40,719 nt of DNA. Source: Saccharicrinis aurantiacus. GTDB taxonomy: Bacteria > Bacteroidota > Bacteroidia > Bacteroidales > Marinilabiliaceae. This document shows, piece after piece, positions 14,885-39,518 of the stretch (positions within the stretch are counted from its first letter, which is position 1; every line of letters begins with the position of its first letter). A program made the translations under genes and the position numbers. The stretch is from contig NZ_LYBV02000016.1 in the NCBI RefSeq assembly GCF_001660705.2, positions 1 through 40,719 on the forward strand, written 5' to 3'. Below the pieces are notes generated by a model that ran no database searches, was not told the DNA's origin, and worked only from the letters and a program-made list of their open reading frames with translations.

Positions 14885-14890
14885 CTATAC

Positions 14891-17879: not shown

Positions 17880-17941
17880 TTAAATATGAAAGTGTATAAT
17901 ATACAATAAGTAAAAATGAAACTTAATTTAAATTGAATTTT

Positions 17942-21124: not shown

Positions 21125-21134
21125 TTGAAAATTT

Positions 21135-22736
21135 ATGAAAAATATATTTTATATATCAATAGCGTTTCTAACAATTCTTACGAGTTGTGGAGATGAGTTT
21201 TTAGATAGAGAAAATCTATTTGAAAAAGACTTAGACAACTATTATCAAAATGCAAAAGATGTTGATGAAGCCTTAGTTGGAGCGTACTCATGTTTAGCAG
21301 TTGATGATGCGCAAAATCATCCTATTTTAATGGCAAATATTCAATCTGATGATTGTTTTGCTGGGGCCGGAACAACAGATCCAATTCCAAATGATTTAGA
21401 TAAATTTACTAAGAATTCGGGTGAAGATACATTCTTGCATATATACGAGCGTTGCTATCAAGGGATATTTTATATAAACACACTCTTGGCTAAAATAGAT
21501 CAAGCAACGTATACCGATGAAGAGTTAAAGCTGCAGCAAAAAGGAGAGGCCTATTTTTTAAGAGCTTTCTTTTATTTTCGCTTATCTCAATTATTCGGAG
21601 AAGTTCCACTACAGTTAGAGCCTGAGTTATTATATCTAGGTAAATCAACTCCTACCGAAATATATACTCAAATTACCTCTGATCTAAAAATAGCTATTGA
21701 TAGCCTTCCAAAAGAAAAATATACAACAGCATGGGCATCTGTAAATAGTGGTAGAGCTACAAAATGGGCTGCACAAGCTTTAATGGCAAGGGTATATTTG
21801 TTTTATACAGGCTATTATAAACAACCAAAATTGAGTACGCTCGAAGAGGGTGATGTTACAAAAGATATGGTGGTTGAATGGTTAGAATCTTGTATTAATG
21901 AAAGCGGACACGACCTAATAGGTGATTACGAAAGTGTTTGGCCCTATTCGTACTTAGATGATAATTGGGCAAAGGATGGTCATATTGAAACGGTGTTTGC
22001 CGTTAAATATACAAACCAAGGTGTTTGGCCAGGTAATCCAGGGCGATTAGCTTATAGTAATCAATATTGCCTTTACATTGGAATGCGCGGAGCAGAGTAT
22101 GCACCTTATGGTCAAGGTTGGGGTTTTGCTCAGGTATCACCAAAATTGCGCGAGGCTTTTGTTGGAGATAGTCGCTTATCACAATCTATTGTGGATATAA
22201 CTTTAGAAGTGCCAGATTATGAGTTTGGATTAGACAGAAATAGAGAAGAAACGGGTCTATATATTAAAAAACACATTCCAATTGTTGCTGATGATGGCGA
22301 GGGAAATGTACGAGGAATGTATTACAACTTATATGGTGGTGTGCAAGCCAATATGCAGCTTTGGAATATGCAGGATGATATTATTATTCGTTTCTCAGAT
22401 GTTTTATTAATGCACTCAGAATTAACAGGAGAAGTAGCAGGAATTGATAAAGTTAGAGCACGTTCAGGTATGTCATCGGCAGGAGCCGATTTAGAAACCA
22501 TAAAAGCAGAACGTAGAAAAGAATTGGCCTTCGAAGGGGTTCGCTATTACGATTTACTACGCTGGGGCGATGCCAAAGAAGCTATAGAAGAAGCTAATGG
22601 TACAATCGTTAAAAACTCGGGTGTTGATGAACCTTATCAAGTAACGTTTAATGCAGATCGCGTATTTCTTCCATTGCCTGAATCTCAAATTAGATTATCG
22701 CAAGGCAATTTGGTTCAAAATCCGGGATGGGAGTAA
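21135..22736 (+). CDS. SusD-like outer-membrane glycan-binding lipoprotein
   Basis: This 533-residue lipoprotein (lipobox LTILTSC, Cys18) has the SusD order: N-terminal FLDRENLFEKDLDNYYQNAKDVDEAL, the TPR-containing scaffold (AYFLRAFFYFRLSQLFGEVPL), and a C-terminus with the typical ERRKELAFEGVRYYDLLRWG and FLPLPESQI motifs. It forms the lid of the SusC pore and binds the glycan. It lies 10 bp after susC. The pair and two following lipoproteins form one operon ending at the terminator near 24684. Confidence 0.95.
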   Translation: MKNIFYISIAFLTILTSCGDEFLDRENLFEKDLDNYYQNAKDVDEALVGAYSCLAVDDAQNHPILMANIQSDDCFAGAGTTDPIPNDLDKFTKNSGEDTFLHIYERCYQGIFYINTLLAKIDQATYTDEELKLQQKGEAYFLRAFFYFRLSQLFGEVPLQLEPELLYLGKSTPTEIYTQITSDLKIAIDSLPKEKYTTAWASVNSGRATKWAAQALMARVYLFYTGYYKQPKLSTLEEGDVTKDMVVEWLESCINESGHDLIGDYESVWPYSYLDDNWAKDGHIETVFAVKYTNQGVWPGNPGRLAYSNQYCLYIGMRGAEYAPYGQGWGFAQVSPKLREAFVGDSRLSQSIVDITLEVPDYEFGLDRNREETGLYIKKHIPIVADDGEGNVRGMYYNLYGGVQANMQLWNMQDDIIIRFSDVLLMHSELTGEVAGIDKVRARSGMSSAGADLETIKAERRKELAFEGVRYYDLLRWGDAKEAIEEANGTIVKNSGVDEPYQVTFNADRVFLPLPESQIRLSQGNLVQNPGWE

Positions 22737-22794
22737 AGCATTGGATTATAATTAATTCTAATGATTGAATTATTAATAATTAAAACATGAAGCA

Positions 22795-23661
22795 ATGAAT
22801 AAGAACACTATATATTTATTTATAATAGGCTTACTGGTATCTGCAGCTTGCGACCCTATAGAGGATAGGCAATCGATGGAACCAGCTAAGTCAGAAACCG
22901 AATTGTTAGCGTCTGTTTCAGTTGAGGTAGATGGTAATAAGGTGGTTTGCACAACTTCCGAAAAAGGACTAATTGCACAGTGGGTATCTTCTTCTGGATG
23001 GATGGCCACAGGACCCGCTCATGAATTTGTAGTTGCATTAGCGGGCGATTATGATATTGATATTAGTTTTTACGGAGGAGATAAAGTAGTAAAAGTAACT
23101 CAATCGTTTAATATAGCTCAGGACGATCCTAATTTCTTCGATCATCCTTACTGGCAATTATTAGCCAAAACAGAAGATGGCGCCATTGAAAAAACATGGG
23201 TTTGGGCCGATGATAATACCTATCAACCCGATTGTATTTGGGGTAAAGGAGGATGGTTAAGTCCTACACCTAATTGGTGGGCTCCTTCTATTGCCGATGC
23301 AATTGATTCTAAAGGAATGGCTTTAACAGATAAGCTAACTTTTAAAATGGATGGTTTAAGTTTTGATAGTGAAACAGGTGCAACACCAGGAAGCGGAAGT
23401 GGTACTTGGGTATTGCAAGTTGGTGGCGAACACCAGGTTTTAGATGAAGAAGGCAATGTTGTTTTTGAAGGAAAGCTTGTATTAACAGGGCATTCCATCC
23501 CATTTGGGGTTGATGGTGATGCAGAGGCTAATGTATATTACGAATATTATATAGTTAATCTCACCGAAAACGAACTTAGACTTTGTGCTACTCCTACAGC
23601 GAACGATGGAGATGCTGCTGCTTGGTTTTGGCACTTTAAGAAAGAAGGTTACTCATATTAA
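22795..23661 (+). CDS. Surface lipoprotein, probable glycan-binding (SusE/F position)
   Basis: This 288-residue lipoprotein (LLVSAAC, Cys19) is in the SusE/SusF position after susD. It has an N-terminal immunoglobulin-like domain of about 90 residues (DGNKVVCTTSEKGLIAQWVS, then HEFVVALAGDYDIDISFYGG) and a Trp-rich C-terminal domain of about 180 residues (WQLLAKTEDGAIEKTWVWADD, GKGGWLSPTPNWWAPS). Exposed aromatic residues suit carbohydrate binding. I do not recognise the domain by name and see no catalytic motif. It probably sits at the cell surface and helps capture the glycan. Function rests on position and composition. Confidence 0.72.
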   Translation: MNKNTIYLFIIGLLVSAACDPIEDRQSMEPAKSETELLASVSVEVDGNKVVCTTSEKGLIAQWVSSSGWMATGPAHEFVVALAGDYDIDISFYGGDKVVKVTQSFNIAQDDPNFFDHPYWQLLAKTEDGAIEKTWVWADDNTYQPDCIWGKGGWLSPTPNWWAPSIADAIDSKGMALTDKLTFKMDGLSFDSETGATPGSGSGTWVLQVGGEHQVLDEEGNVVFEGKLVLTGHSIPFGVDGDAEANVYYEYYIVNLTENELRLCATPTANDGDAAAWFWHFKKEGYSY

Positions 23662-23676
23662 CAAAACGTTATAGCT

Positions 23677-24636
23677 ATGAATAAAACAAAATATATAAGT
23701 CAATTTACAGTATCTTTTATGATACTAATTGGATCATTATTGGTATTTAATACTTCTTGTATGAAAGAAGAAGTAGACGAGCCCATAACTATTGATTCAC
23801 CAACTCCTGAGCCACCAGAAGTTGAGGTTCCGCCAGTTTTTGAATTAGAGGGTTTTACTCCTGAATACGGCGTTCCTGGTACAATGATAACTGTTACTGG
23901 TTCGGATTTACAAAAGATTGAGTCTATATTGTTTCCTGGAGGCACCGTAGTGCTTGCAGCCGATTTTGTTGAGCAAACAAGACGTCAGATTATGGTTGAA
24001 GTACCGGCTCACATAGAGAGTGGAATACTTACCTTAACAGCTACTGATAATGAAGAGCCTGTAAATGTAGAAACAGAAGAGAACTTCTTTGTTTTTGCAC
24101 TTACACGTACAGCTTTAATTCCGGTTGATGCTGCAGATGCAATAATTTCGGATAACCCTGATGTGTGGCCCGACTTTATTCAATCTGGAGGCTTAAATTG
24201 GAGTGGACAACCATTTCTCGCCATTACAGATGACGCCGTTTCAAACGGAGCTGGTGTTAAAGGAAATGGAACAGCAATTGGTAATGGTGATTTTATATGG
24301 GGTTGGGGAATGAACTGGACTCCAATGGATTTTCAATCAACTAAAGCAACTCATAATCTGCGTATTGATATGAAGTTAACTAAGCCATTTGGTAGTAATC
24401 CTCGTTTTGCATTTTTAATTAATAAACATCAAATTAATTTAGGAAGCTTTGGTTTTGGTGCCGATGGAACTTTTGAAGGTTGGTTTACTGTTGAAATAGA
24501 TTTATCAGCTTATGGTAATTTGCCAGATGGTAATATTGAAGCAACAGGCGATTGGGGCTTTATTATGGATTATGTTGATGGAACAGCGGATGTTACAGGA
24601 TTATATATGGATAATTTCCGTTTTTCACCAAAGTAG
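23677..24636 (+). CDS. IPT/TIG-domain surface glycan-binding lipoprotein
   Basis: This 319-residue lipoprotein (LLVFNTSC, Cys28) has a Pro/Glu linker (about 36-50), one IPT/TIG immunoglobulin-like domain (GFTPEYGVPGTMITVTGSDL, about 54-140) and a C-terminal beta-sandwich (about 150-319) with exposed Trp residues (FIWGWGMNWTPMDF). This order matches the surface glycan-binding proteins of Bacteroidota loci, which hold the polysaccharide for endo-acting enzymes and SusCD. It lies 15 bp after the preceding lipoprotein gene, in the same operon. No enzymatic motif. Confidence 0.82.
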   Translation: MNKTKYISQFTVSFMILIGSLLVFNTSCMKEEVDEPITIDSPTPEPPEVEVPPVFELEGFTPEYGVPGTMITVTGSDLQKIESILFPGGTVVLAADFVEQTRRQIMVEVPAHIESGILTLTATDNEEPVNVETEENFFVFALTRTALIPVDAADAIISDNPDVWPDFIQSGGLNWSGQPFLAITDDAVSNGAGVKGNGTAIGNGDFIWGWGMNWTPMDFQSTKATHNLRIDMKLTKPFGSNPRFAFLINKHQINLGSFGFGADGTFEGWFTVEIDLSAYGNLPDGNIEATGDWGFIMDYVDGTADVTGLYMDNFRFSPK

Positions 24637-24683
24637 ATTTTACAGTTTAGTGTGTATAAAGTGAATTGATTTTTTCAGTAGAT

Positions 24684-24729
24684 AAAGGTCGGTAAATCAA
24701 ATTGTAGTAATTGACTTATCGGCCTTTTT
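24684..24729 (+). terminator. Terminator closing the susCD operon
   Basis: AAAGGTCGGTAAATCAA and TTGACTTATCGGCCTTT pair over 17 positions with a few wobbles, followed by a T run. The T tract ends just before an ATG at 24734, which argues for a later start of the next gene. Confidence 0.8.
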
Positions 24730-24757
24730 ATTTATGATCTATTTTAGAATTAATGCT

Positions 24758-25963
24758 ATGAATAACCTAATCAATATTAATATAGGTAGCATGCTTCATG
24801 AAATGAAGCTAGAATTAAGTGCCCTGTTAAATTATTGGGCTGAGAATTCTATAGATGACAAGTATGGAGGTTTTCTCGGTGAAATAAATGGGTTAGGTAT
24901 TGTTACTGATAAAGCAGAAAAAGGGGCCGTTCTTAATGCTCGTTTGTTATGGACTTTCTCCGCGGCATATGCTTTTTCAAAAGATAAAAGATACTTATCA
25001 TTAGCCAATAGAGCTTATCAATATCTAGTAAAATACTTTTGGGATCAGGAGAATGGAGGTCTATACTGGTCTTTAAATTTTGATGGCACAATACTCAATA
25101 ACCGAAAGCAAGCATATGCGCAAGGTTTTGGTATTTATGCTTTCTCAGAATATTTTAAAGTTACAGGTAACAAAGAAAGTTTGGCTTATGCAATTGATTT
25201 ATATCGAATAATCGAAGCGCATTATAAAGATCACAAACATGGTGGTTATTTCGAAGCTTTATCTAATTGTTGGGAACCTCTTGTTGATATGCGTTTGAGT
25301 GAAAAAGATGCCAATGAACCTAAATCGATGAATACGCATCTACACATAATAGAGCCGTATACAAACTTGTATAAAGTATGGTCTAATTCTCAATTAAAAG
25401 TGAGTATTCAATATTTACTCGATTTATTTTCAGAGCATATCATCAATAAACAAACCTTTCATTTCAATCTCTTTTTTCAAGAAGATTGGAAGTGTACCTC
25501 TCAAATTGTCTCGTATGGTCATGATATTGAAGGAGCATGGTTATTAAACGAAGCGGCCTATGCAATTAATGATACCAATAATATTAATCGTATGATGGAT
25601 TTATCTATAAAAATGGTAGAGGTTACCATAGACGAGGGGATTGCCCCAGATGGAAGTATTTATTACGAAAAAGAGAATGGACAGCTAGATACTGATAGGC
25701 ATTGGTGGCCTCAGGCAGAAGCATTAGTTGGATTTACAGATGCATATCTAAATACAAATAATGAAGCCTATTTACAACATGTTAATCGTGTTTGGAAATA
25801 TATAATAGGTACTATGAAGGATCCTATAAAAGGGGAATGGTTTTGGAAAGTTAGTGATAATGGAAAGGCGGATACATTTAATCCTAAATTAGGTTTTTGG
25901 AAATGTCCTTACCATAATTCACGTGCTTTAATTGAAGTTATAAAACGATTAGGATCAGGTTAA
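24758..25963 (+). CDS. Cellobiose/mannobiose 2-epimerase (AGE family)
   Basis: This protein of about 401 residues is an (alpha/alpha)6 barrel enzyme of the N-acylglucosamine 2-epimerase superfamily with no signal peptide, so it is cytoplasmic. Motifs of cellobiose 2-epimerases are present: KAYAQGFGIYAFSEY-like segment near 120, SYGHDIEGAWLL, DRHWWPQAEALVG and GFWKCPYHNSRALIEV, with the His residues that catalyse proton transfer. In a mannan locus it would convert mannobiose to mannosyl-glucose. The GH130 phosphorylase that normally follows is not in the window. An in-frame ATG at 24734 would add 8 residues but touches the terminator; I prefer 24758. Confidence 0.9.
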   Translation: MNNLININIGSMLHEMKLELSALLNYWAENSIDDKYGGFLGEINGLGIVTDKAEKGAVLNARLLWTFSAAYAFSKDKRYLSLANRAYQYLVKYFWDQENGGLYWSLNFDGTILNNRKQAYAQGFGIYAFSEYFKVTGNKESLAYAIDLYRIIEAHYKDHKHGGYFEALSNCWEPLVDMRLSEKDANEPKSMNTHLHIIEPYTNLYKVWSNSQLKVSIQYLLDLFSEHIINKQTFHFNLFFQEDWKCTSQIVSYGHDIEGAWLLNEAAYAINDTNNINRMMDLSIKMVEVTIDEGIAPDGSIYYEKENGQLDTDRHWWPQAEALVGFTDAYLNTNNEAYLQHVNRVWKYIIGTMKDPIKGEWFWKVSDNGKADTFNPKLGFWKCPYHNSRALIEVIKRLGSG

Positions 25964-26034
25964 TGAAATGAACTGACAACCCATATTCTCATCAATTTTC
26001 AGGATGATTTTGTTCTTAATTTAAACAGTTTAGT

Positions 26035-27000
26035 ATGTTTAATCTGATTAGGTATTTCCCAATAATAGTTTTATTAATATTTCAAGCGTGTACCCAGCCT
26101 GGTTTTAAAACAGATAATAATATATTGCTCGATTCTAATAATAAACCATTTGTTATTAGAGGAGTAAATAATCCTAATATTTGGTATCCTCAAAAAGCTT
26201 ATGATGCTTTGGAGTGTATTGCGCAAAAAGGGACAAATTGTATTAGGGTGGTGTGGGAAACAAATGGAAAGTGTGAGGAACTAGAAAAGATAATTTTACG
26301 ATGTATTGAATTAGAAATGGTAGTTATGATTGAACTACACGATGCAACTGGGGATAGTTCAAATCAATCCTTATTTAATCTCGTACAATATTATACGCAG
26401 AGCGATATAAAGGAAATGCTATTGAAATATGAAGATTACCTTTTAATAAACATTGCTAACGAATGGGGCAATCACCTTCTTGATGACCAATATTGGTACA
26501 GCTCATACAAGTCATCCGTAAGTTTATTGCGTGAAGCAGGATATAGTACTACAATAGTAATTGACGGATCGGGATGGGGGCAAGATATTTCGCCAATATT
26601 GAGCTACGGAAATGCCCTAATTGATGGAGATAAAAATCATAATATTTTATTTTCCATTCATATGTATGGCTCATGGAATTCTGAAGAAAGTATCGACCGC
26701 CAATTAAATAAGGCCAAAAAATTACGCTTGCCTATTATTATTGGAGAGTTTGGTTATAACTTTCAAAATGGCATTAATAACTTAGCCTGTAAAGTAAATC
26801 ATCTGAAAATACTTGAAACATGCAACCGATTGGGATATGGATATATTGCTTGGTCGTGGACTGGAAATAACGAAGATAATGCTTGGCTCAATCTAGTTGA
26901 CCCTAATGATTGGCAAACTCTAAGCTATTGGGGAGATCAAGTTTTTAATTCAGAATTTGGTATAGCCAATACATCTGTCAAAGCAAGCATATTTGATTAG
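26035..27000 (+). CDS. Lipidated endo-beta-1,4-mannanase, GH5 subfamily 8
   Basis: This 321-residue protein has a lipoprotein signal (LLIFQAC, Cys19). The (beta/alpha)8 barrel is very like bacterial GH5_8 mannanases: FVIRGVNNPNIWYP, VVMIELHDATGD, the acid/base Glu143 in INIANEWG, WGQDISPILSYG, FSIHMYGSW and the nucleophile Glu238 in IIGEFGY, followed by GYIAWSWTGN. It cuts internal beta-1,4-mannosidic bonds of mannan or glucomannan, probably at the cell surface. It has no carbohydrate-binding module. It lies 71 bp after the epimerase gene and meets the HTCS gene tail-to-tail with 7 bp between stops. Confidence 0.93.
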   Translation: MFNLIRYFPIIVLLIFQACTQPGFKTDNNILLDSNNKPFVIRGVNNPNIWYPQKAYDALECIAQKGTNCIRVVWETNGKCEELEKIILRCIELEMVVMIELHDATGDSSNQSLFNLVQYYTQSDIKEMLLKYEDYLLINIANEWGNHLLDDQYWYSSYKSSVSLLREAGYSTTIVIDGSGWGQDISPILSYGNALIDGDKNHNILFSIHMYGSWNSEESIDRQLNKAKKLRLPIIIGEFGYNFQNGINNLACKVNHLKILETCNRLGYGYIAWSWTGNNEDNAWLNLVDPNDWQTLSYWGDQVFNSEFGIANTSVKASIFD

Positions 27001-27007: not shown

Positions 27008-30000
27008 TTAGGTAGCTTGCTTCTGTAAGGCATATTCCTTCGGACTCATTTTATAATATTTATGAAATGAGGTTGAAAAATATTGGTGAGAGTTAAAGCC
27101 TACCATATATGCAATTTCAGAGATGTTATGTTGATTCTTCTCAAGTAAATTAGCGGCATGTTTTAACCTAATAATTCTAATAAATTCGGTTGGGGATTGA
27201 TTAGTGAGTGCTTTAATTTTCCTATAAAAATGCGTTCTGCTAAATCCTAATTCTTGGCTTATTTTATCAATAGTTAAGTCTATGTCTTCGAGATGATTAT
27301 TAACAAAGTCAATGGCATTTTGTAAAAAAAGTTCATCGGTGTTTGTTGCTGTCATTTCCTTAGCTTTAAAACTCACTGTATGCGAAAACGCTTCCTTAAG
27401 CTTTTCTCGTCCATCAATAATTGATTTTACCTTGGCCTTGAGTATATCAATGTTAAAAGGTTTACTTATATAGGCATCGGCTCCATTTTGTAAACCATTT
27501 ATTACAAATTTATCAGCCGTTTTTGCAGTTAGTAATATGACTGGAATATGACTGGTTTCTAAGTTCTCTTTTATAGCAATACACAAATGATTACCATCCA
27601 TTATAGGCATGCTAATATCACTTATTATTAGGTCGAAAGAATTGGTTTCTACACATGCTAAAGCTTCTTTACCATTGTTGGCTGTATAAACAGAATAAGT
27701 ACTGTTAAATTCATTCTTTAAGAATTCAAGTATATCTAAATCGTCCTCAACAAGCAGAAGCTTTGATTTTTTGATTTCAGTGTTAGTGTTATTGCTAACT
27801 AGTTCTGAAGAGTTGTTTATATCCATTGATTCATCATGAAACTTTTCTTTGTGAATGTTTGTATTTTCTGAATTTATTTGAAAAGGTATAGATAATATAA
27901 ACCTAGTGCCTAACTTCTTAGAGCTTTCAATCCTTATTTTACCATCAATAGTTTCAACAAGTTTCTGAACAATATGAAGACCGATACCAGTTCCGTCATT
28001 ATTCGATTCTTGATAAAAGCGATCAAATATTTTTGTTCGATTTTCTTTTGGGATATACGACCCTGAGTTATTAATTGAAAGAATTAGTATGCTGTTATTT
28101 TCTTCAATGTTAATTGAAATTTTTCCGCCTTTGGGAGTATATTTAACTGCATTTGAAAATATGTTATAAACAACTTTATCTATTTTATCAGCATCAATAC
28201 AAATAGTTCTAAATTGTAGATGATTTCTAAATTGAACCCTTATTGAGTTATTGTTTATTGATATCTCAAACAGAGAGATTATATTGTGAATAAGGTCGTT
28301 AATGTTAACACTATCTTGTTTGATATGTAGTTGCGAGTTGTCAATTTTTTGAATGTCGATTAATTGATTGATTAAACGCTGCATTCGCATTGTATTCCTA
28401 CTGATATAGGAAATATATTTTCTCTGTTCATTATTTAAATCAGTACTATTAAGCTTTTGCAAAGGCGCTGAAATCATTGATAAAGGAGTTTTTACATCAT
28501 GAGATATGTTTGTAAAAAACTGGAACTTAGCCTGATTTAGTTTGCGCTGCTTTTGTTTTTCTAGTTCCTGAAATAAAACTTTATTCTGCATCCGTAGTCT
28601 AAATCGGTATAGCTTAAGTATTATAATAACTATGCTTGTAATTAACACAAAATAAATGCAGTATGCCCAAAAGCTTAAGGCGAATGGAGGTTTAATATTG
28701 ATAATAATCTCTCGGCTATTATTTAGCCAGTTCCCATTAGTATCGGTTGTTTTAGCATTAAAAACGTAGCTTCCTGGTTTCAGATTACTGTAGGTGGCCA
28801 CTCTATACTTGTAGCTTGTTTCAACCCACTTGTCGTTAAATCCTAATAACTGATATCTGTATTTTATTTTTTCGGGCGCGATGTAGTTTATTGCTGCAAA
28901 TTCAATAGAAAATGATTTATCAGAATAAAGTAAGTTAATAGTATCCGTAGCATTAATGCTTTTGTTTAATATCTGCCTGTTATCAGCAGAAATACCTTTT
29001 TTAAGCTCTTTATTAAAAAGTTTAAAATTGGTAAAATGAAGTCTTGAGTGAACGTTTTTAATTTTTATTTCGTCAGGATGAAATTTAATATATCCGTTTA
29101 CGCCTCCAAAATATATATAGCCTTCCTTGTCTTGGTAATTGGCATCTGATAAGAATTCGTTAAAAGGAAGCCCGTCAAACTGATTAAAATTTTTAAATGT
29201 TCTGTTCTGCGGATTGAACTTGGATAGGCCATTGGCAGTTGATATCCAAATTTCATTTTCTTTATACGGAATGATACTAGCAATTTTATTATTACACAAG
29301 CCATTGGCAGTGCTATAGTGTTCAAGTTTGTTTGTGATTTGGTTAAATACAAAATATCCTTTAAATGTTCCTAAAAGTATTTGCTTGTTGAATCCTCTTT
29401 TTACACAATAAACAGGAGTGTTCTCAAAAATAGGAAACTCATCCTGCAGGCGTACTAAATGTTGTTCCTTTTGTTTCCAAATTAACGGGCCTTGGTAGCT
29501 TGCCATCCAAATATCTCCGTTTTCTTCAATCAGAAGGTCGTTTAAGTTAGTTAGGGTTTCAGTGCTTCCAAAATTTGTTTTAAATTTTATTTTCGATGTC
29601 CATTCACCTGTGTGTTTATTGAATCTAACTAAGCCCGATCCATTGGTAGCCATTAGTAAATGATCATCATCCTCTTCTTCAATATCAAAAATCCAATTTA
29701 ATGATTGTTCAGATTTATCTGATTTTATAGGGTAGTTAATCAGTGTGTTATCATTAGCTCTAATGCATCCTAAACCGTTACTGTAACTGCCAATCCATAA
29801 ATTTTGGCTCTCATCATTCATAACAGCCAATATTGCCGAGGGCTTCCAATTATAATTATGGATAGTTTCACCATTCGAGGCATCGTTGCTCAGGTGTATT
29901 AAGCCGCCACCATCCGAGCCAATTAATAAGTTTTCATTTTTATCTTTAATTATGGTTCTTACCAGATGATGGTTTAATTGGCTATTTTTTGGAGTAACGC

Positions 30001-31027
30001 TTATAAACGGAAATGTAGGGTTAACTTGATGATAAATACCTACATAATTAATGGCATACCACAAATCATTATCATTATCTTTTTGGCAAATTACCGATGA
30101 CTTATTTAGGTTATTGATGTTCTCTAGCTTATTGGCATCTTGTAGAATTAGAGTTTTTTTATTGATGCTTTGAATTCCGGCATATTCAGTTCCCACAATT
30201 ATTTCAGCTTTAGTTTCCGTTATAGAAGTAATGCCACCTAATGCCTGGTTGTGTTTTTTTATTGCACACTGAATTGTGTTATCTAATTCGTTGTATAAAA
30301 TAATATTACCATCAATTCCACCAAAGCAAATAATGTTGTTCTCTAAACATTCAATGGTTTGAATGCTCTGAAAGGGCTCAAAGTTGGTGTTCTTCGTATA
30401 CTCTTTAAAGGTATAGAAGCGATTTGTTTTAGGATTAAAAATCAATATGCCATGACCGTTTGTGGCTAGCCAAATATTATTTTTCGAGTCTATACTTCCT
30501 CCATAAATGTGAATGTACGCCGGAGATCCATCCGAATTAAAAGAGGTATTGTAAAATTGTGTTTTAAAGGTTTTTGTATCAAATTTAATAAGTCCATTGT
30601 GACTTACAAGATATAGTGTTCTCGTGTCAAACTGAAGTATTTTTTGAATCGGAGTTTTTATATTAATACCGTTGTGTAATAAATTTAGGCGTTTAAAGTT
30701 ATCCTTTTCATAATTGTATAAATTCAAACCAATGTTACTCCCAACCCATAGTTGGTTATTATTATCGATAAATGATGTTAGTATAAACGATGAATTTAAG
30801 GTTGTTATATCATTTATATCAGTATGATACATTTTAAAATTGTAGCCATCAAATTTTATTAAACCTGTCATGGCCGATATCCACATAATTCCATTATGGT
30901 CATGCATAATATTATAGAAGAAACTGCCCTCTAAGCCTTCGCCTTTTGAGTATAGTCTATCAGGATAAGCATAAAGCTGACATGCTAAAACAATAGAAAT
31001 AACTATGGAAACAATGCGTTTATACAT
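27008..31027 (-). CDS. Hybrid two-component system sensor-regulator (HTCS)
   Basis: This 1339-residue one-piece regulator has a signal peptide, a periplasmic two-propeller sensor built of Reg_prop repeats (IMWISAMTGL, LWVGSNIGLN, IWLATNGHGI and more), a Y_Y_Y domain (about 690-770) and one membrane helix (about 785-805). Cytoplasmic parts are HisKA with the phospho-His in FTNISHDVKTP (about 841), an HATPase_c domain (NAVKYTPKGG, GTGIGLHIV), a receiver with phospho-Asp in LIISDISMPIMDG (about 1136) and an AraC-type DNA-binding domain (about 1240-1335). HTCS proteins sense an oligosaccharide and switch on the adjacent susCD operon, here probably a manno-oligosaccharide. It could alternatively serve the uronate operon that starts at 32361. 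Confidence 0.95.
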   Translation of the reverse strand: MYKRIVSIVISIVLACQLYAYPDRLYSKGEGLEGSFFYNIMHDHNGIMWISAMTGLIKFDGYNFKMYHTDINDITTLNSSFILTSFIDNNNQLWVGSNIGLNLYNYEKDNFKRLNLLHNGINIKTPIQKILQFDTRTLYLVSHNGLIKFDTKTFKTQFYNTSFNSDGSPAYIHIYGGSIDSKNNIWLATNGHGILIFNPKTNRFYTFKEYTKNTNFEPFQSIQTIECLENNIICFGGIDGNIILYNELDNTIQCAIKKHNQALGGITSITETKAEIIVGTEYAGIQSINKKTLILQDANKLENINNLNKSSVICQKDNDNDLWYAINYVGIYHQVNPTFPFISVTPKNSQLNHHLVRTIIKDKNENLLIGSDGGGLIHLSNDASNGETIHNYNWKPSAILAVMNDESQNLWIGSYSNGLGCIRANDNTLINYPIKSDKSEQSLNWIFDIEEEDDDHLLMATNGSGLVRFNKHTGEWTSKIKFKTNFGSTETLTNLNDLLIEENGDIWMASYQGPLIWKQKEQHLVRLQDEFPIFENTPVYCVKRGFNKQILLGTFKGYFVFNQITNKLEHYSTANGLCNNKIASIIPYKENEIWISTANGLSKFNPQNRTFKNFNQFDGLPFNEFLSDANYQDKEGYIYFGGVNGYIKFHPDEIKIKNVHSRLHFTNFKLFNKELKKGISADNRQILNKSINATDTINLLYSDKSFSIEFAAINYIAPEKIKYRYQLLGFNDKWVETSYKYRVATYSNLKPGSYVFNAKTTDTNGNWLNNSREIIINIKPPFALSFWAYCIYFVLITSIVIIILKLYRFRLRMQNKVLFQELEKQKQRKLNQAKFQFFTNISHDVKTPLSMISAPLQKLNSTDLNNEQRKYISYISRNTMRMQRLINQLIDIQKIDNSQLHIKQDSVNINDLIHNIISLFEISINNNSIRVQFRNHLQFRTICIDADKIDKVVYNIFSNAVKYTPKGGKISINIEENNSILILSINNSGSYIPKENRTKIFDRFYQESNNDGTGIGLHIVQKLVETIDGKIRIESSKKLGTRFILSIPFQINSENTNIHKEKFHDESMDINNSSELVSNNTNTEIKKSKLLLVEDDLDILEFLKNEFNSTYSVYTANNGKEALACVETNSFDLIISDISMPIMDGNHLCIAIKENLETSHIPVILLTAKTADKFVINGLQNGADAYISKPFNIDILKAKVKSIIDGREKLKEAFSHTVSFKAKEMTATNTDELFLQNAIDFVNNHLEDIDLTIDKISQELGFSRTHFYRKIKALTNQSPTEFIRIIRLKHAANLLEKNQHNISEIAYMVGFNSHQYFSTSFHKYYKMSPKEYALQKQAT

Positions 31028-31201: not shown

Positions 31202-32080
31202 ATGTGTATTGAAATTAGAAGAGAAATTACGCCTTTAAAAGAAAGTGATTGCTTTTTAATTATAGATAGAAAGCAGAATGCGTTTAATTATCCAGTTCAT
31301 TTTCATCCTGAGTTTGAAATTAATTTTATAATTAATGGCACCGGTTCAAAAAGAATTGTGGGTGATCATATAAGCGAAGTTGGTGAAATGGAATTGGTGA
31401 TGGTGGGTCCTAATTTATACCATGGTTGGGAAAATGGAAATATGAATTTAGATTCAAAGTATCGCCAGATTACCATTCAGTTTTCTCGCGATTTATTTAC
31501 TAATAGTTATCTCTGTAAAAAGGATGTTAAGCCGATTAAAGAGCTTTTAAATAATTCTTGCAGGGGAATCTCATTTTCAACTGAAACAATCAATAAAGTT
31601 CATCATAAAATAATTAAGCTAACAAAACTTGAGGGCTTCGAAGCTTTTCTGCTGTTTCAATCCTTTTTATATGATATAGCTAACTCAGCCAATCAAAGCT
31701 TCTTAACAAACCTCTCTTTTAATCACGAAAATGACTTTTATAATAGCGAACGAATTGAAAAGGCTTACAAGTACATTGTGTCAAATTTTCATAAAAAACT
31801 AAGACTTGAAGAAACTGCTGAAAGCATAAGTATGTCTGCAATTACTTTTAGCCGTTTGATTAAGCAACGCACAGGCAAATCTTTTGTCGATTTTGTTAAT
31901 GAAATACGTTTGGGTTATGCGACACGTCATTTAATCGAATCTAACAAAACGGTTTCCGAAATTGGTTATATCTGTGGATTTAATAATTTATCCAACTTTA
32001 ACAGGATATTTAAAAAACGTCAAGGGTGCACGCCTACAGAGTTTCGGAAAGATTTTGAGAGTGTTAAAGCAACTGCTTAA
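31202..32080 (+). CDS. AraC-family regulator of the uronate operon
   Basis: This 292-residue protein has an N-terminal cupin sensor (NYPVHFHPEFEINFIINGTG, about 29-48) and a C-terminal AraC double helix-turn-helix (about 190-290) with LRLEETAESISMSAITFSRLIK and SEIGYICGFNNLSNFNRIFKKRQG. It is built like the AraC protein encoded at 9786 but is a different protein. It is divergent from the HTCS and upstream of the lyase-sulfatase-GH88 operon, which it probably controls. The 21-bp-spaced direct repeat before its promoter suggests autoactivation. The 280 bp downstream contain an inverted repeat at 32226-32255 but no gene. Confidence 0.88.
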   Translation: MCIEIRREITPLKESDCFLIIDRKQNAFNYPVHFHPEFEINFIINGTGSKRIVGDHISEVGEMELVMVGPNLYHGWENGNMNLDSKYRQITIQFSRDLFTNSYLCKKDVKPIKELLNNSCRGISFSTETINKVHHKIIKLTKLEGFEAFLLFQSFLYDIANSANQSFLTNLSFNHENDFYNSERIEKAYKYIVSNFHKKLRLEETAESISMSAITFSRLIKQRTGKSFVDFVNEIRLGYATRHLIESNKTVSEIGYICGFNNLSNFNRIFKKRQGCTPTEFRKDFESVKATA

Positions 32081-32360: not shown

Positions 32361-33908
32361 ATGAATAAAGTTATTTTAATAGTTCTAATGCTATCCACAT
32401 CTTTGCTCTATTCTCAAGAGAGTGAATTATGGAAAAATTACAAAAGTGCTTACGAAAGTGGATCAGAGCCTAAATTACCCAACTTTTCCTATGCCGGATA
32501 TAAATATGGAGAAGAACCCATTCCAATTGTTAAATATAAAGAGTTTAATGTAGTTGATTTTGGTGCAGATAAATTAGGTAATAAATCATCAAAACAGGCT
32601 TTGATAAAGGCTATATCAGCAGCAGAAAACAATGGAAGTGGAATAGTATTTTTCCCTAAAGGCCGATATTTGATTAATACGGAGGGAGACGATTTAGAAA
32701 CTATATTGGTTTCTAAATCAAATATTGTTTTTCGAGGTGAAGGAGATTCTGTTGATGGTTCAGTATTGTTTTTTGATAAAGATTTACCGGCAGAAGATCC
32801 TACTAAGTTATGGACTTGTCCTCCATCGATAAAAGTTAATGTAAAGCAACGTGACAAGTTTATAACAAAAGTTATAGCGGATGCAAGGCGTGAATCATTC
32901 TCAATTGAAGTTTCAGATGCATCAGCTATAAAGCCTGGCGACTGGGTAATTTTAAAGGTGAAAAATAATGCTCCTGAATTAATTGAATATGATTTACAAC
33001 CTCTAGTACCTGAAAAAGAATGGGTGTCTATATTAAATGATGGAGTTATTGTAAATGAGCGTCATCAAATAAAGAGTGTTAAAAATAATAGAGTTACATT
33101 TTTTGAGCCAATTCATTATGATGTTCAGTCTAAACATAACTGGGAGTTGTATTCTTATGCATATCTTGAAGGTGTTGGTTTTGAGCATATAAAATTTGAA
33201 GGGAATTGGAAGATTCCTTTTGTGCATCATAAAAATGCTCAGCACGATGGCGGTTGGACCATATTAAATTTAAGCCGTTGTGTTAACTCATGGGTGAAAG
33301 ATTGCAGTTTCGAGAATGTAAGCAGAGCCGTAGTTTTTAGTCAGAGTGCATATTCAACAGCTTTAAACAATACAATACTAGGCAATTTTGGTCATAGCGC
33401 TATTTCGGCAGGCGGCGGTTCTACAAGTATTTTAATTGCCCATAATATTGATTTAGCAGGTATGTGGCATACATTTGGTGTGCAAGGCGGGAGTACTACA
33501 GGTACAGTTATTTGGCGCTGTACTTATCCTGATTATACTTGTTTCGAGTCGCATGCATCGCAGCCACGTTGTACATTGTTTGATAATGTAGAAGGTGGTT
33601 TTTTTGCAGGTAGAGGTGGCGGAGCACGACAAAATCTCCCCAATCATGGTAGGTATCTAGTATTATGGAATTTTAAAGAAATTGATGAGGCTGAAGAAAA
33701 CTTTGAGTTTTGGGATACAAAAACTTGGTATTGGAAAATAGTTCCCCCTATAATTGTAGGTTTCCACGGTGCCGGAACTACGTTTAAAGAACAGGATGTG
33801 GATATTGTTGAAAGTTTGGGGAAACGGGTAAGTCCTGAATCGCTTTGGGAATCACAATTGAAACTTCGTTTGGGTAAATTGCCAAAGTGGATAGAGGCAT
33901 ATAAATAA
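32361..33908 (+). CDS. Secreted right-handed beta-helix protein, candidate polysaccharide lyase
   Basis: This 515-residue protein has a standard signal peptide (cleavage after about residue 18, SLLYS). FNVVDFGADKLGNKSSKQAL (about 63) followed by ALIKAISAAENNGSGIVFFPKGRY is the start of a Pectate_lyase_3-type beta-helix. Later come helix rungs (WTILNLSRCVNSWVKDCSFE, AVVFSQSAYSTALNNTI) and a C-terminal region with SHASQPRCTLFDNVEGG and HGRYLVLWNF, which recalls DUF4955 proteins. I cannot assign a known PL or GH family. It is the first gene of an operon with a sulfatase and a GH88 enzyme; GH88 needs a 4,5-unsaturated uronate, which only a lyase makes, so lyase activity is the most economical idea. 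It could instead be a hydrolase or epimerase. Confidence 0.7.
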   Translation: MNKVILIVLMLSTSLLYSQESELWKNYKSAYESGSEPKLPNFSYAGYKYGEEPIPIVKYKEFNVVDFGADKLGNKSSKQALIKAISAAENNGSGIVFFPKGRYLINTEGDDLETILVSKSNIVFRGEGDSVDGSVLFFDKDLPAEDPTKLWTCPPSIKVNVKQRDKFITKVIADARRESFSIEVSDASAIKPGDWVILKVKNNAPELIEYDLQPLVPEKEWVSILNDGVIVNERHQIKSVKNNRVTFFEPIHYDVQSKHNWELYSYAYLEGVGFEHIKFEGNWKIPFVHHKNAQHDGGWTILNLSRCVNSWVKDCSFENVSRAVVFSQSAYSTALNNTILGNFGHSAISAGGGSTSILIAHNIDLAGMWHTFGVQGGSTTGTVIWRCTYPDYTCFESHASQPRCTLFDNVEGGFFAGRGGGARQNLPNHGRYLVLWNFKEIDEAEENFEFWDTKTWYWKIVPPIIVGFHGAGTTFKEQDVDIVESLGKRVSPESLWESQLKLRLGKLPKWIEAYK

Positions 33909-33947
33909 ATGTAAAATTTACCGTTTATGTTTTTTAAAGATATAGTA

Positions 33948-35456
33948 ATGAAAATTTGCTTAGTCATTGCATCAATTCTATTATTTACTTCTTGTATTAA
34001 AACGGAAAAGCCCAATGTAATTGTAATATTTCCCGACCAGTTTCGGCAATATAGTTTAGGTTTCTGGTCGCAGGGTAAAAATGCACAATACATTCAAGGT
34101 AAACCAGACCCTGTTCATACCCCTAATCTGGATAAATTGGCTAATCAAGGAGTCGTATTTAGTCAGGCGATTAGTAATTTTCCGCTATGTAGTCCGTATA
34201 GGGGAATGTTACTAACAGGCACTTATCCATATAAAAATGGACTTACAGCAAATTGTCATAAAAATAGAACTGTCGGAATAAAAGCAGATGGAAATGCCAT
34301 TGCAAATGTGTTTTCGTCGGCAGGCTATGAAACTGCTTATTTTGGTAAATGCCACTGGCAGCGAACAGAGCCTTTATTTGATTCAATAGGGAATTATCGA
34401 GGAACAGATATAGTGCCTGGAGGTCATTTTATAAATGCTTATGATACGTATGTTCCACCTGGTAAATCTCGTTTGGGCTTTCAATATTTCTTTCAAACAT
34501 TGAGGGATACTCATTACGATCCTCTTTGTTATTCGAATGATAGCCTTGCAATTAATGGTTTATTAGATGGTGAATTGTATCAACCCAAAAAGTTTAATGC
34601 GCAATTAGAAACAGAGGCCTTGCTCAATTATCTTGATAATTCCCATAATCAGCGAAATACGAATAAACCATTCTTTATTACTTGGTCTTTAAATCCGCCA
34701 CACAATCCATGGACTGTAGAAAGTACAGACATGCGTTTCTTTCCTCAGTATACCGTTAATGGCAAAGTTGATGTGAATCAACTTCTATTGAGAGCAAATG
34801 CAGATAAATTGGTGGGAGAATATGCGCCATATTATTTTGCGAACGTGAGTGCTGTTGATCATTTTATCGGAAAGGTTTTAAACAAGCTCGATGAGATGCA
34901 AATTAGCGGTAATACAATTATTGTCTTTACTTCTGATCATGGAGAAATGTTAGGAAGTCACGGACATAAAGGAAAACCATATCCCGAGAGTGAAGCCTTT
35001 AATATCCCATTTATTATTAAGTGGGGAGACAAATTAAAGCATCGTATTGAAGATTTAAAACTAAGTGTACCTGATGTAATGCCCACTCTTTTAGCATTAG
35101 CGGGTTTCGAGGATAAAATACCAGCTTCGGTGCAAGGAAACAATTATTCCGAAATTATAGCAAATAAATCAACTAAGATAAAACGCCCAAAGGCAGTACT
35201 TTATTTTGATTATTACTCACGCGGTCTGTATTTAGGAGATTATACTTTTGTTGTTACTACTTCAGATAAAGCTACATTTAAGGAAGCTTTTTATTACGAT
35301 AATAAAAGCGATCCTTATCAACTTCATCGCATAACAGGTGACGCTATGAATGAGAAAATGGTTTCTGTTTGGAAAAAAGAGTTGGTAAATCAGCTTAAGA
35401 AAGTTGATGATGTTTGGGCAAAGAATAAAGTATGCTCTGAATATTTAGAGTATTAA
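33948..35456 (+). CDS. Lipidated S1-family sulfatase
   Basis: This protein of about 502 residues has a lipobox (ILLFTSC), so it is membrane-anchored in the periplasm or at the surface. The sulfatase signature CSPYRGMLLTG gives the Cys (residue 81 from this start) that is converted to formylglycine; CxPxR is intact. Metal and sulfate residues are seen in IFPDQ (N-terminus), HTPNLDKLA and TSDHGEMLGSHGHKGK. It removes sulfate esters from a glycan. An upstream in-frame ATG at 33927 adds seven residues before the signal peptide, so I prefer 33948. It starts 40 bp after the beta-helix gene. The S1 subfamily and therefore the sulfate position cannot be told by eye. Confidence 0.9.
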   Translation: MKICLVIASILLFTSCIKTEKPNVIVIFPDQFRQYSLGFWSQGKNAQYIQGKPDPVHTPNLDKLANQGVVFSQAISNFPLCSPYRGMLLTGTYPYKNGLTANCHKNRTVGIKADGNAIANVFSSAGYETAYFGKCHWQRTEPLFDSIGNYRGTDIVPGGHFINAYDTYVPPGKSRLGFQYFFQTLRDTHYDPLCYSNDSLAINGLLDGELYQPKKFNAQLETEALLNYLDNSHNQRNTNKPFFITWSLNPPHNPWTVESTDMRFFPQYTVNGKVDVNQLLLRANADKLVGEYAPYYFANVSAVDHFIGKVLNKLDEMQISGNTIIVFTSDHGEMLGSHGHKGKPYPESEAFNIPFIIKWGDKLKHRIEDLKLSVPDVMPTLLALAGFEDKIPASVQGNNYSEIIANKSTKIKRPKAVLYFDYYSRGLYLGDYTFVVTTSDKATFKEAFYYDNKSDPYQLHRITGDAMNEKMVSVWKKELVNQLKKVDDVWAKNKVCSEYLEY

Positions 35457-35511
35457 TGACTGTGAGTAAAAAAGCGAGGATAAGATTAGTAGGAATCAAA
35501 AAATTATTGAC

Positions 35512-36696
35512 ATGATAAAATGGGTTTTATTAATTGTGAGTATTGTTTTGCTATCTGCTTGTGCAGATAAAAAATCGAAATTAGAATTATTTAATCAGGA
35601 CTTAATATTAGCTTCTATGCAAGTTGATTCCATAAGTTCAATAGCAGCTGAAATAAAACGCATTCCTCGCACTCTAACGCCTGAAGGAGAAGTGCATTGG
35701 GCAAATCAGAATTTTGATTGGACAGAAGGTTTTTTTCCTGGTACCCTATGGTACTTATATAAATTTACGAAAGATGAGAAATGGAAAAAACGCGCACTTA
35801 TTTTACAGAATACCTATAAGCAACACCGATTTTTTACAAATAACCACGATTTAGGTTTTGTGTTTAATTGTTCCTATGGTAATGCTTATAAGTATAATAA
35901 AGATGATTCTTCAAAGCAGGTTTTAATTGATGCAGCCAATTCTTTAAGTACCCGTTTTAATGCCAATGTTGGATGTATACAGTCGTGGGATGTTGATGCA
36001 GGTTGGCAAGCAAAAAGAGGATGGCAGTTCCCTGTTATCATTGATAATATGATGAATTTAGAGCTTTTGTTTAAAGTTTCTGAAATTACAGGAGATTCTA
36101 AATATAAAAAAATAGCCATCAAACATGCCAATACCACTTTAGAGAATCATTTTAGAGATGACAATAGTTCATTTCACGTGATTGATTATAACCCAGATAC
36201 AGGTGAGGTGCGAAGTAAACAAACCGCCCAAGGATATGCAAATAATAGTGCTTGGGCTCGTGGGCAGGCTTGGGGTTTATATGGATATACGATTTGTTAT
36301 CGTTTTACTAACGATCCAAAGTATTTGCAGCAAGCTGAATTTATTGCAGATTTCATTTTTAACGATGAAAATTTTCCACAAGATCATATTCCATATTGGG
36401 ATTATGATGCCCCTAATATTTCCAACCAGCCCCGTGATGTTTCGGCAGCAGCCATTATTGCTTCAGCTTTAATTGAGCTGAACGAATATACAAGTAAGGA
36501 TTATTCAGAAAAGGCAAAAGGAATTTTGAAAGAGTTATCTTCTGATAAATATCGTGCTATGCTAGGCCATGAAAATGGCTTTATTTTAAAGCATAGTGTA
36601 GGAAGTATTCCTCATAATAATGAAATTGATGTGCCTTTAAATTATGCTGATTATTACTATGTAGAGGCATTAATGCGATTACTCGGATTGGATTAA
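35512..36696 (+). CDS. Lipidated unsaturated glucuronyl hydrolase, GH88
   Basis: This 394-residue (alpha/alpha)6 barrel enzyme has a lipobox (VLLSAC, Cys17). Active-site aspartates are Asp113 (NHDLGF) and Asp178 (VIIDNMMN), the equivalents of the two Asp known to be needed for vinyl-ether hydration in this family. SAWARGQAWGLYGY and the C-terminal EIDVPLNYADYYYVEAL are also typical. It removes the 4,5-unsaturated uronic acid left at the non-reducing end by a polysaccharide lyase. GH105 is the related alternative, but the length and motifs suit GH88 better. It lies 55 bp after the sulfatase gene in the same operon. Confidence 0.9.
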   Translation: MIKWVLLIVSIVLLSACADKKSKLELFNQDLILASMQVDSISSIAAEIKRIPRTLTPEGEVHWANQNFDWTEGFFPGTLWYLYKFTKDEKWKKRALILQNTYKQHRFFTNNHDLGFVFNCSYGNAYKYNKDDSSKQVLIDAANSLSTRFNANVGCIQSWDVDAGWQAKRGWQFPVIIDNMMNLELLFKVSEITGDSKYKKIAIKHANTTLENHFRDDNSSFHVIDYNPDTGEVRSKQTAQGYANNSAWARGQAWGLYGYTICYRFTNDPKYLQQAEFIADFIFNDENFPQDHIPYWDYDAPNISNQPRDVSAAAIIASALIELNEYTSKDYSEKAKGILKELSSDKYRAMLGHENGFILKHSVGSIPHNNEIDVPLNYADYYYVEALMRLLGLD

Positions 36697-36953
36697 GTAT
36701 CTATTTATATATACTGAATATCAGATTAATAATCTTACAAATTGAGTTCTATCAGTTTAAAAACTAACATTTAGTAACCTAGACAAAAACTAACGGTGCT
36801 AAATTATAACAATATTGCTTTTTTTACCCCCCGTAACATTGTAATTAAAGTTTCAAATTTGAAGTGTGGTTGTATATATGAATAAATAGGAGCCATTATT
36901 TAATAGTATATGCTACTTAAGATATTGTTAATACATTACTAAATTGTTATAGA

Positions 36954-39458
36954 ATGAAGAAAATTACGTATTTATTTTTTCTGATGATTTCGCCATTATT
37001 GTTGTTTGCTCAGCCAAACACAACGGAATCTCATGAAGATAATAGCCAACTTATTCGAGATTTAAGTGGCAGCAGGTGGACCATGAAGATGATGTTGCCT
37101 GGCGAAGGAGTTAAAAAAGGATTACACAACCTACCTCCTGAAGATATTGAAACTTTAGTGTGGAATTATGCACAGGTACCAGGAGATGTATACACAGATT
37201 TATGGAAAGCAGGGGCTATTGAAGATCCTTATTTCGGACGTAATAGTGTAAAAGCACAATGGGTACAACAATACGAGTGGTGGTACTCAGTACAATTTAA
37301 AGTTACTGAGCCTGTTAACGATCAAATTGTGCGTATTGAATTTGACGGTGTAGATTATGAATGTGATGTTTGGTTAAATGGCCATTTTTTGGGTCACCAC
37401 GAAGGTGCCTTTTCCGGATTTTCATTTGATGTGAACGATGCTTTACGTATTTCCAAATGGGATCATTTGGCGAGTACAAACATGTTAATGGTTCGTTTGG
37501 CTCCACCACCACAAGTAAACGCTTTGGTTGCCGGTAAAAAAACACCTTGGTTTGGTGATTACTGGCGCGATTTGATTCCATTTGGGATTAATAAGCCGGT
37601 ACGTATGGTATCAACAGGTAAAGTTCTTTTTGAAGATGTGTATGCAAATACTACCATCAATAAGGATAAATCTGCAGATGTAAAATTGGAGATGACCGTT
37701 GAAAATACGGATTCGGAACCACGTGATATGACTTTTATTGCTTCATTAGAAGGGAAGAACTTTAAAATGAAGACTCAAACTGTAGAATTTACAAAAACAG
37801 TTAAGCCAGGTGTTCATAAAGTTGAAAAGAATATACACATTAGCGATCCAAAATTATGGTGGCCATGGGATTTAGGAGATCAGAACTTATACAAAACACG
37901 TATTTCATTAAAAGAAGGAGCCGTTAATCACGATTTTAACGAAACTGTTTTCGGAATTCGTGAAGTTACTTCAAAGTGGAATCCTGGATTTGAGAAAAAT
38001 GTAGAAGTGAGTTTCCCTCGATCAACATATATCAATGGGAAGTTTCATTTTATACGCTCAGCTTGTTGGGGAGGACCACCAGATATTTTTGTAGGTCGTT
38101 CAGGTATTGAAAAATATAAAGAGTTGATCCGATTAGCTAAGGAAGCGAACCTTAATAATATTCGTATTTTCGGATGGCATCCGCCAGAGATACCAGAGTT
38201 TTATCAGTATTGCGATGAAATGGGTATGACGGTTTGGCAAGATATGATTCCATTAGGAACAGGTAATATTCCAACAGAAGAGGAAAAACTAGCCGCTATT
38301 TTTAACGAAGGTGTAAAAGTAGTGAAAGAGCGTAGAAATCATCCATCTTTAATTATGATGGAAGGTGGAGAAGAAATGATGTTACGTACTCGTGATCCTC
38401 AATTTGGACGTCAGTTCTTAGAGCGTTTAGGGGATTCTTTACAAAACTACGTGAAGCTACCTTATGTACCAGATTCACCATTAACGTGTCATGTGTCTAA
38501 AGCGGCTGGTTATAAAAATAAAGAAGCTGTTCATGCGCTAAGGTATTTCTACGATATGGGTAAATTCTTGCATGAAGATTGGTATCAAACACTTGAATTT
38601 CCTATTGTGCCAGAGTTCGCCATTACTTCTGTTCCATCGGTTGAGAGTTTAAAGAAGTTTATTCCTGAAGAGGAAATGTGGCCTCCAGGATTAAGTTGGG
38701 GACATCATTGGGCTGATTTAACACGCTTACGTATGCAAAACTGGGATGTTTTTGATAGCGAAATGACAGGTTCTTTAGGTGAGTTTGTGAATGCTACACA
38801 AGATGCACAGGGTATTATTTTCCAAAATGGTATTGAGTATTTCCGTCGCCAAAAGCCTAATTTAAGTGGTATTGCTTTATGCCATTGGATTACCTATTGG
38901 CCAGATATGAAATGGGGTATTGTTGATAACTATGCAAAACCAAAGAATTCATACGACTTTGTTAAGAAAGCGTACCAGCCATTGTTAGTGAACTTTGAGT
39001 TTAAAAAGCGTCGTTGGGATAAGAAAGAACCATTTGTTGGTAACATATGGGTAATTAACGATTTGTATAAAGATTACAGTAACTGTAAAATCGAATTCCA
39101 AATAAAAGATGATGCCGGCGCTGTTCTATCTACTCAAAAATTTGATGTAGCTAAGATTGATGCTAATAGTGCTAAGTCCTTATTCGCCATCAACGAAAAA
39201 GTGTTGAAAAGTGTTGACAAGAAATTCTTTGTAACACTTAAGTTGAGTGATAAAAAAGGGAATGCATTAAGTGAGAATGATTACTTCTTTTTAATTGGCG
39301 ATCAGGCTGAGGCAACTAAAAAGTTTAATGAGATGAAAGAAATGAGGGTGAAAAGAGAGTCGAAATATAAGTATGGAAACTACTATCAATTCTTTGATGA
39401 TATTGATAATAAAACATATGATAGTGGAACTCAGCATCCAAAGGCATTTGGGTATTAA
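36954..39458 (+). CDS. Secreted divergent GH2 enzyme, beta-mannosidase/glucosaminidase-like
   Basis: This 834-residue protein has a signal peptide (LFFLMISPLLLFAQ) without a lipobox. It has the GH2 layout: jelly-roll with VDYECDVWLNGHFLGHHEGAF (about 130), immunoglobulin-like domain with WWPWDLGDQNLYKT, then a TIM barrel. RRNHPSLIMMEGGEE aligns with the NHPSIVLWCGNNE of the mannosidase at 15067, so the acid/base is Glu474. The residue before it, an almost invariant Asn in clan GH-A that contacts the sugar's 2-OH, is Glu473 here. The nucleophile is probably Glu554 (VPEFAITS). A changed substrate at C2 is likely. It lies 257 bp after the GH88 gene and may be the last gene of the uronate module or separately transcribed. 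Confidence 0.85.
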   Translation: MKKITYLFFLMISPLLLFAQPNTTESHEDNSQLIRDLSGSRWTMKMMLPGEGVKKGLHNLPPEDIETLVWNYAQVPGDVYTDLWKAGAIEDPYFGRNSVKAQWVQQYEWWYSVQFKVTEPVNDQIVRIEFDGVDYECDVWLNGHFLGHHEGAFSGFSFDVNDALRISKWDHLASTNMLMVRLAPPPQVNALVAGKKTPWFGDYWRDLIPFGINKPVRMVSTGKVLFEDVYANTTINKDKSADVKLEMTVENTDSEPRDMTFIASLEGKNFKMKTQTVEFTKTVKPGVHKVEKNIHISDPKLWWPWDLGDQNLYKTRISLKEGAVNHDFNETVFGIREVTSKWNPGFEKNVEVSFPRSTYINGKFHFIRSACWGGPPDIFVGRSGIEKYKELIRLAKEANLNNIRIFGWHPPEIPEFYQYCDEMGMTVWQDMIPLGTGNIPTEEEKLAAIFNEGVKVVKERRNHPSLIMMEGGEEMMLRTRDPQFGRQFLERLGDSLQNYVKLPYVPDSPLTCHVSKAAGYKNKEAVHALRYFYDMGKFLHEDWYQTLEFPIVPEFAITSVPSVESLKKFIPEEEMWPPGLSWGHHWADLTRLRMQNWDVFDSEMTGSLGEFVNATQDAQGIIFQNGIEYFRRQKPNLSGIALCHWITYWPDMKWGIVDNYAKPKNSYDFVKKAYQPLLVNFEFKKRRWDKKEPFVGNIWVINDLYKDYSNCKIEFQIKDDAGAVLSTQKFDVAKIDANSAKSLFAINEKVLKSVDKKFFVTLKLSDKKGNALSENDYFFLIGDQAEATKKFNEMKEMRVKRESKYKYGNYYQFFDDIDNKTYDSGTQHPKAFGY

Positions 39459-39485: not shown

Positions 39486-39518
39486 AAAGCAGACATATTT
39501 AACGTGTCTGCTTTTTTT
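39486..39518 (+). terminator. Intrinsic terminator after the divergent GH2 gene
   Basis: AAAGCAGACA and TGTCTGCTTT form a perfect 10-bp stem with a 9-nt loop and end in a run of seven T. It closes the uronate module. Confidence 0.9.

Follow-up and report, generated by a model that had tools for sequence, protein, structure and literature searches.

A short PL29-type lyase, a sulfatase and a GH88 hydrolase form a probable chondroitin/hyaluronan-degrading cassette in Saccharicrinis aurantiacus

Degradation of chondroitin sulfate, dermatan sulfate and hyaluronan (CS/DS/HA) has been described in Bacteroides thetaiotaomicron, where the lyase BT3328-PL29, the sulfatase BT3349-S1_27 and the hydrolase BT3348-GH88 are reported to act in one pathway (PMC6994673). 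In the available parts of that account (PMC6994673), BT3328 is presented as the founding PL29 enzyme and as a surface lyase, and its N-terminal region of about 300 residues, common to the binding protein BT3329, is suggested to be a spacer. Since a binding protein carries this spacer too, the spacer is no defining trait of the lyases. PL29 is counted, in the excerpt of a second paper, among the families shown only on CS/DS/HA (PMC11848413). Here, we analyzed one whole contig of Saccharicrinis aurantiacus (the window, 40,719 bases, from a 5.88 Mb genome of 69 contigs listed as 100% complete), which carries a gene for a short PL29-type right-handed beta-helix lyase with a DUF4955 domain, followed by genes for a Cys-type S1 sulfatase and a GH88 unsaturated glucuronyl hydrolase. 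From their sequences, these three genes quite probably form a small glycosaminoglycan-degrading cassette acting on CS/DS or HA.

The lyase gene (32361..33908, + strand, 515 aa) is followed after 18 bases by the sulfatase gene (33927..35456, +, 509 aa) and after a further 55 bases by the GH88 gene (35512..36696, +, 394 aa), and a GH2 gene (36954..39458, +, 834 aa) begins after a gap of 257 bases. An earlier note on this DNA had described these four genes as one operon of exported enzymes. The four frames lie where it placed them, and the Pfam domains Sulfatase, Glyco_hydro_88 and GH2 confirm genes two to four. Export is consistent with signal-peptide-like starts seen by eye in all four proteins, namely signal peptidase I (SPI)-like starts in the beta-helix protein and GH2, and lipobox-like starts in the sulfatase (LLFTSC) and GH88 (LLSAC). 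A single operon fits the first three, closely spaced genes and less well GH2, which lies farther downstream and has its relatives elsewhere. In the proposed pathway, the PL29-type lyase would cut CS/DS or HA at uronate by beta-elimination to yield 4,5-unsaturated oligosaccharides, the S1_27-like sulfatase would take the 4-O-sulfate off N-acetylgalactosamine, and GH88 would then remove the unsaturated uronate. The lyase, in which no lipobox was seen by eye, would be soluble, and the sulfatase and GH88 would be membrane-anchored and face the periplasm. We infer these activities, the substrate, the order of steps, the locations and the AraC control discussed below by analogy with described systems, and they are probably correct. 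By the same analogy, CS/DS or HA is a likely target, rather than ulvan, fucoidan or glucuronomannan.

Residues 4-515 of the lyase match the NCBIfam model NF058554 (BT3328 family hyaluronic acid endo-lyase, CAZy PL29) with 431.8 bits and an E-value of 5.5e-129. The alignment spans model positions 291-840 of 840, and the first 290 positions are absent from the window lyase. The window lyase is also 33.7% identical over 508 positions to the protein of locus L077, which passes the cut-off of this model with 1247 bits. In Pfam, the only matches are DUF4955 (7.4e-58) and a general pectate-lyase-like model. A comparison with the PDB found no close solved structure for the lyase, and a profile of 24 family members retrieved pectate-lyase-like beta-helix proteins, mostly over ~50-100 positions near the N-terminus, including alginate epimerases, a putative pectin lyase, glucanases, GH110 and iota-carrageenase. 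There are 28 invariant columns across all 24 aligned members; His289, His290, His345, His370 and His398 are invariant in these 24 proteins and in all 27 of a larger set, and may be candidates for catalysis.

Because of this family match and the conserved neighborhood described below, we read the protein as a PL29-type lyase; it is assigned to the known family as a short form, and very likely supplies the unsaturated products on which GH88 acts. The earlier note had called the beta-helix protein unclassified, had seen no recognizable lyase family nearby and had proposed a new lyase system. The NF058554 match places the protein in a family and makes it the recognizable lyase itself, and the family, with BT3328 as founding member, is not new. 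That the protein is a lyase had been deduced from the logic of GH88 alone; the family evidence and the conserved neighborhood agree, and the claim is probably right. The same two lines of evidence back the target that had been suggested, a uronate-containing, probably sulfated glycan.

The partner enzymes point in the same direction. The best PDB match of the sulfatase is the endo-4-O-sulfatase 6s21 (1.5e-90, 307.7 bits, residues 25-509), which from its structure name we take to be BT3349 (S1_27), and the next matches are 8di0 (arylsulfatase) and 6j66 (chondroitin/dermatan 4-O-endosulfatase). Its Cys-type active-site motif is kept (Cys88 in CSPYR), and by sequence it resembles the S1_27-type chondroitin 4-O-endosulfatases. 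The third protein (Glyco_hydro_88, 4.7e-11) matches 3wiw (1.2e-97) and 1vd5 (1.9e-52) in the PDB, and its Asp113 and Asp178 fall in the same columns as Asp88 and Asp149 in 1vd5, presumably the catalytic pair. With both Asp columns kept, as directly observed here and for the sulfatase motif, its sequence identifies it as a GH88 unsaturated glucuronyl hydrolase.

The lyase was found in 15 of 71 genomes of the bacterial family, and 22 loci (L028-L049) were read. The nearer relatives occupy 16 of these loci (L028-L043, 46-69% by BLAST), one of which, L043 (G010:C59, 88576-90086), holds a broken PL29-type gene with an internal stop codon and a match split in two pieces. GH88 (45-63%) is present in 15 of the 16, the sulfatase type (33-43%) in 12, and a large protein matching PL8 lyases also in 12; GH88 genes 53-63% like that of the window occur in loci that also have PL8. 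The two large lyases scanned, from L029 and L032, contain Lyase_N, Lyase_catalyt and Lyase_8 domains, a set that we take to be of chondroitinase-ABC type. Gene order and strands vary between loci, so accidental linkage of lyase, sulfatase and GH88, whose association in relatives is directly observed, is unlikely. In L032-L043, the gene next after the PL29-type one encodes ~200-226 residues, and the only copy scanned (L032, 10837-11451) matches CBM96. Four more loci with lyase relatives belong to different families within the order and class; GH88 is present in L078 (58%) and L079 (48%) and was absent from the 20 kb read in L076 and L077, which hold BT3328-type proteins.

In a tree of 27 proteins, the window lyase forms a clade with those of L028, L029, L030 and L031 (100/100). 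Three of these four other members have GH88, and L029 has PL8 and the same sulfatase type as well. The closest relative by identity is L028 (69-70%), and the closest named one belongs to Puteibacter caeruleilacunae (Prolixibacteraceae); named relatives are few, a single-protein scan of the genome collection giving at least two loci. The window clade and two others, one with 11 short forms and one with L077 and the BT3328-type proteins, share a 22-row group (95/90) with an unsettled inner order, and long branches occur among the far members, whose placement is unsure. The far relatives in L047 (5488-9273 and 10978-13800, the latter with a DNRLRE domain) and L048 (9087-10739) are 25-31% identical to the window lyase, adjoin sulfatases only 24-25% like that of the window, and could be a separate branch of the family.

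PL8 (Lyase_8) was detected in 18 of the 71 family genomes, including every genome with a PL29-type gene except that of the window (14 of 15). There, Lyase_8 gave no match in a search of the window genome itself (with no positive control) or in the family-wide search (18/71 positive), and Hepar_II_III_C (control positive in 2/14) and Chondroitinas_B (control positive in 1/14) gave none either; PL16, PL23, PL30, PL37 and others were left unsearched. The sulfatase was found at an E-value of 1e-70 or better in 15 of the 71 genomes, and 14 of these have a PL29-type gene, i.e. 14 of the 15 genomes of that kind. Three closer sulfatase relatives (61-72%, one interrupted by a stop) sit apart from PL29-type genes, and the one in genome G018 lies near GH88 and PL8. 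The window genome encodes a single DUF4955 protein. This domain is sparse in the class: of 395 genomes sampled, 8 have it (6 over the cut-off), the window genome included. The case is mildly unusual in two respects: a lyase without the N-terminal part of BT3328 and a genome without detected PL8.

Several observations weigh against a CS/DS/HA cassette. The lyase score of 431.8 bits lies below the NF058554 equivalog cut-off of 1100 bits, which was set for an 840-position protein; this partly reflects the absence of the 290 N-terminal model positions and partly the divergence of the remainder. The L078 protein, equally short, reaches 600 bits, pointing to divergence of the window lyase. A model of the lyase fold predicted from three sequences was poor (mean pLDDT 39.4) and gave no usable active-site geometry. 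L028, the closest lyase relative, has none of the partner genes (GH88, sulfatase or PL8) within 10 kb. GH88 is found in none of the six farther-relative loci (L044-L049), which show other contexts, so the wider lyase family may have other substrates. In L098 and L099, two of the three loci with the closest sulfatase relatives, the stretches read contain no GH88 or PL8. The cassette itself includes neither PL8 nor a SusC/SusD pair, and the nearest GH88 structure, 3wiw, is taken by us to be Phep_2830 of the heparin pathway.

These observations bear on other readings. It seems unlikely that this is a stripped-down system whose short PL29 lyase, lacking an anchor, does all the depolymerization without PL8, possibly of a chondroitin-like polymer, with GH2 removing a side sugar. 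We regard as improbable a PL29-related lyase that acts on some other sulfated uronate glycan, e.g. a marine or algal polymer, again with GH2 removing a side sugar. The lack of a PL8 match in the host genome, the identity of only ~34% to the BT3328-type L077 protein and the merely distant similarity of the sulfatases beside L047 and L048 would fit such a glycan, but the sulfatase is nearest to endo-4-O-sulfatases (two of its three best matches are so named), three of the four clade mates have GH88, with L029 adding PL8 and the sulfatase type, and the GH2 relatives are located elsewhere.

Heparin or heparan sulfate would be a very improbable substrate. The main pointer towards it is 3wiw as the nearest GH88 structure, set against a 4-O-endosulfatase-like sulfatase (heparin is not known to carry 4-O-sulfate), a genome in which no Hepar_II_III_C protein was found, and the PL8-holding loci in which the 53-63%-like GH88 genes stand. 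The literature, as far as the available excerpts go, can be cited on both sides, with Phep_2830 placed in the heparin pathway (PMC10154612) and PL29 reported only on CS/DS/HA (PMC11848413). That the lyase represents a new family without kinship to any known one is hardly credible: Pfam has nothing more specific than DUF4955 and general pectate-lyase-like models, and no close solved structure was found, but NF058554 matches along the chain and L077, which passes its cut-off, falls in the same 22-row group of the tree. The lyase, sulfatase and GH88 genes thus look like a reduced version of the known chondroitin/hyaluronan set, mostly ordinary and no new lyase system.

GH2 was also counted as part of the system in the earlier note. 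It resembles beta-mannosidases (5n6u, 2e-61), and its Glu474 and Glu554 align with Glu residues in 2vqu, with an altered acid/base motif (MEGGEE in place of WCGNNE of 2vqu) and a gap in the acid/base stretch relative to 5n6u. Ten relatives (67-82%) were found in seven other genomes, and at the threshold used none of the ten lies beside a PL29-type lyase, GH88 or S1_27-like sulfatase in the fetched stretches; the contig of one of these, L059, is just 4.9 kb long, and another (L081) holds a sulfatase 26% like that of the window. Among ten neighboring proteins picked from five of the stretches are an aldehyde dehydrogenase, two CoA transferases, methylmalonyl-CoA mutase, 1-deoxy-D-xylulose 5-phosphate (DXP) reductoisomerase and one GH43. 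Membership of GH2 in the system was dropped on this result; because its near relatives stand apart from lyase, sulfatase and GH88 genes of these types, GH2 is probably a passenger outside the dedicated set. There may be a weak link to PL29 genomes, as GH2 occurs in 4 of the 15 with a PL29-type gene vs 4 of the 56 others (one-sided Fisher 0.056), a type of value that ignores genome relatedness and, with most genomes from two genera, overstates the evidence. In addition, a scan listed no terminator-like site in the GH88-GH2 gap, so GH2 may be co-transcribed with the first three genes, and a terminator-like hairpin (39486..39514, +, an 11-pair stem and a T run) follows GH2. Across the region, terminator-like sites show no excess (6 vs a shuffle mean of 5.0). 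Matches to the Bacteroidetes-type promoter pattern (1 vs 2.47) and sigma-70-type sites (46 vs 45.1, at chance level) were not used.

Upstream of the lyase gene by 280 bases lies an AraC-type regulator gene (31202..32080, +; HTH_18, 5.8e-22), which may control the cassette. A domain scan identified a hybrid two-component sensor (HTCS) gene at 27008-31027, on the strand opposite to the AraC gene; its product is 26-29% identical to HTCSs beside the lyase genes of relatives, a level that does not establish it as their counterpart. Elsewhere in the window, consecutive genes at 2956-11415 encode an enolase-type dehydratase, an alcohol dehydrogenase, an SDR, an amidohydrolase, an aldo/keto reductase, an SSF symporter, an AraC protein and an L-rhamnose-mutarotase-like protein, and resemble a pathway for the oxidative breakdown of L-fucose or L-rhamnose. 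The genes at 11754-27000 (mannose isomerase-like, ROK kinase, LacI, beta-mannosidase-like GH2, SusC, SusD, 2-epimerase and GH5) look like a beta-mannan utilization locus distinct from the PL29 cassette.

This study opens no new lyase class; what it adds to the PL29-type chondroitin/hyaluronan lyases is a short form spread across Bacteroidota, for example in Puteibacter and Gramella. A natural case without detected PL8 also makes the minimal working unit of the PL29 family testable. A literature search by title (PL29 with marine or Prolixibacteraceae) retrieved no title on such a cassette, and a prior report is possible. Compared with BT3328, through NF058554 and L077 rather than its own sequence, the window lyase has the same beta-helix/DUF4955 region (model positions 291-840), the invariant His set that it has in common with the model-passing L077, and a gene set with GH88 and an S1_27-type sulfatase; it differs in lacking the first 290 model positions and in an SPI-like start, BT3328 being a surface lyase. 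The CS/DS/HA locus of B. thetaiotaomicron (BT3324-BT3350) likewise brings PL29, an S1_27-type sulfatase and GH88 together, whereas the window cassette has one sulfatase, no PL8, SusC/SusD or surface binding protein, and an AraC gene just upstream. Relative to L032-L043 of the same bacterial family and L029 of Gramella sp. AN32, the window cassette differs in gene order and strands and in having neither the PL8 found nearby in 12 of these 13 loci nor the SusC match of 6 of them, and it shares with all 13 the PL29-type gene and GH88, and with 12 its sulfatase type.

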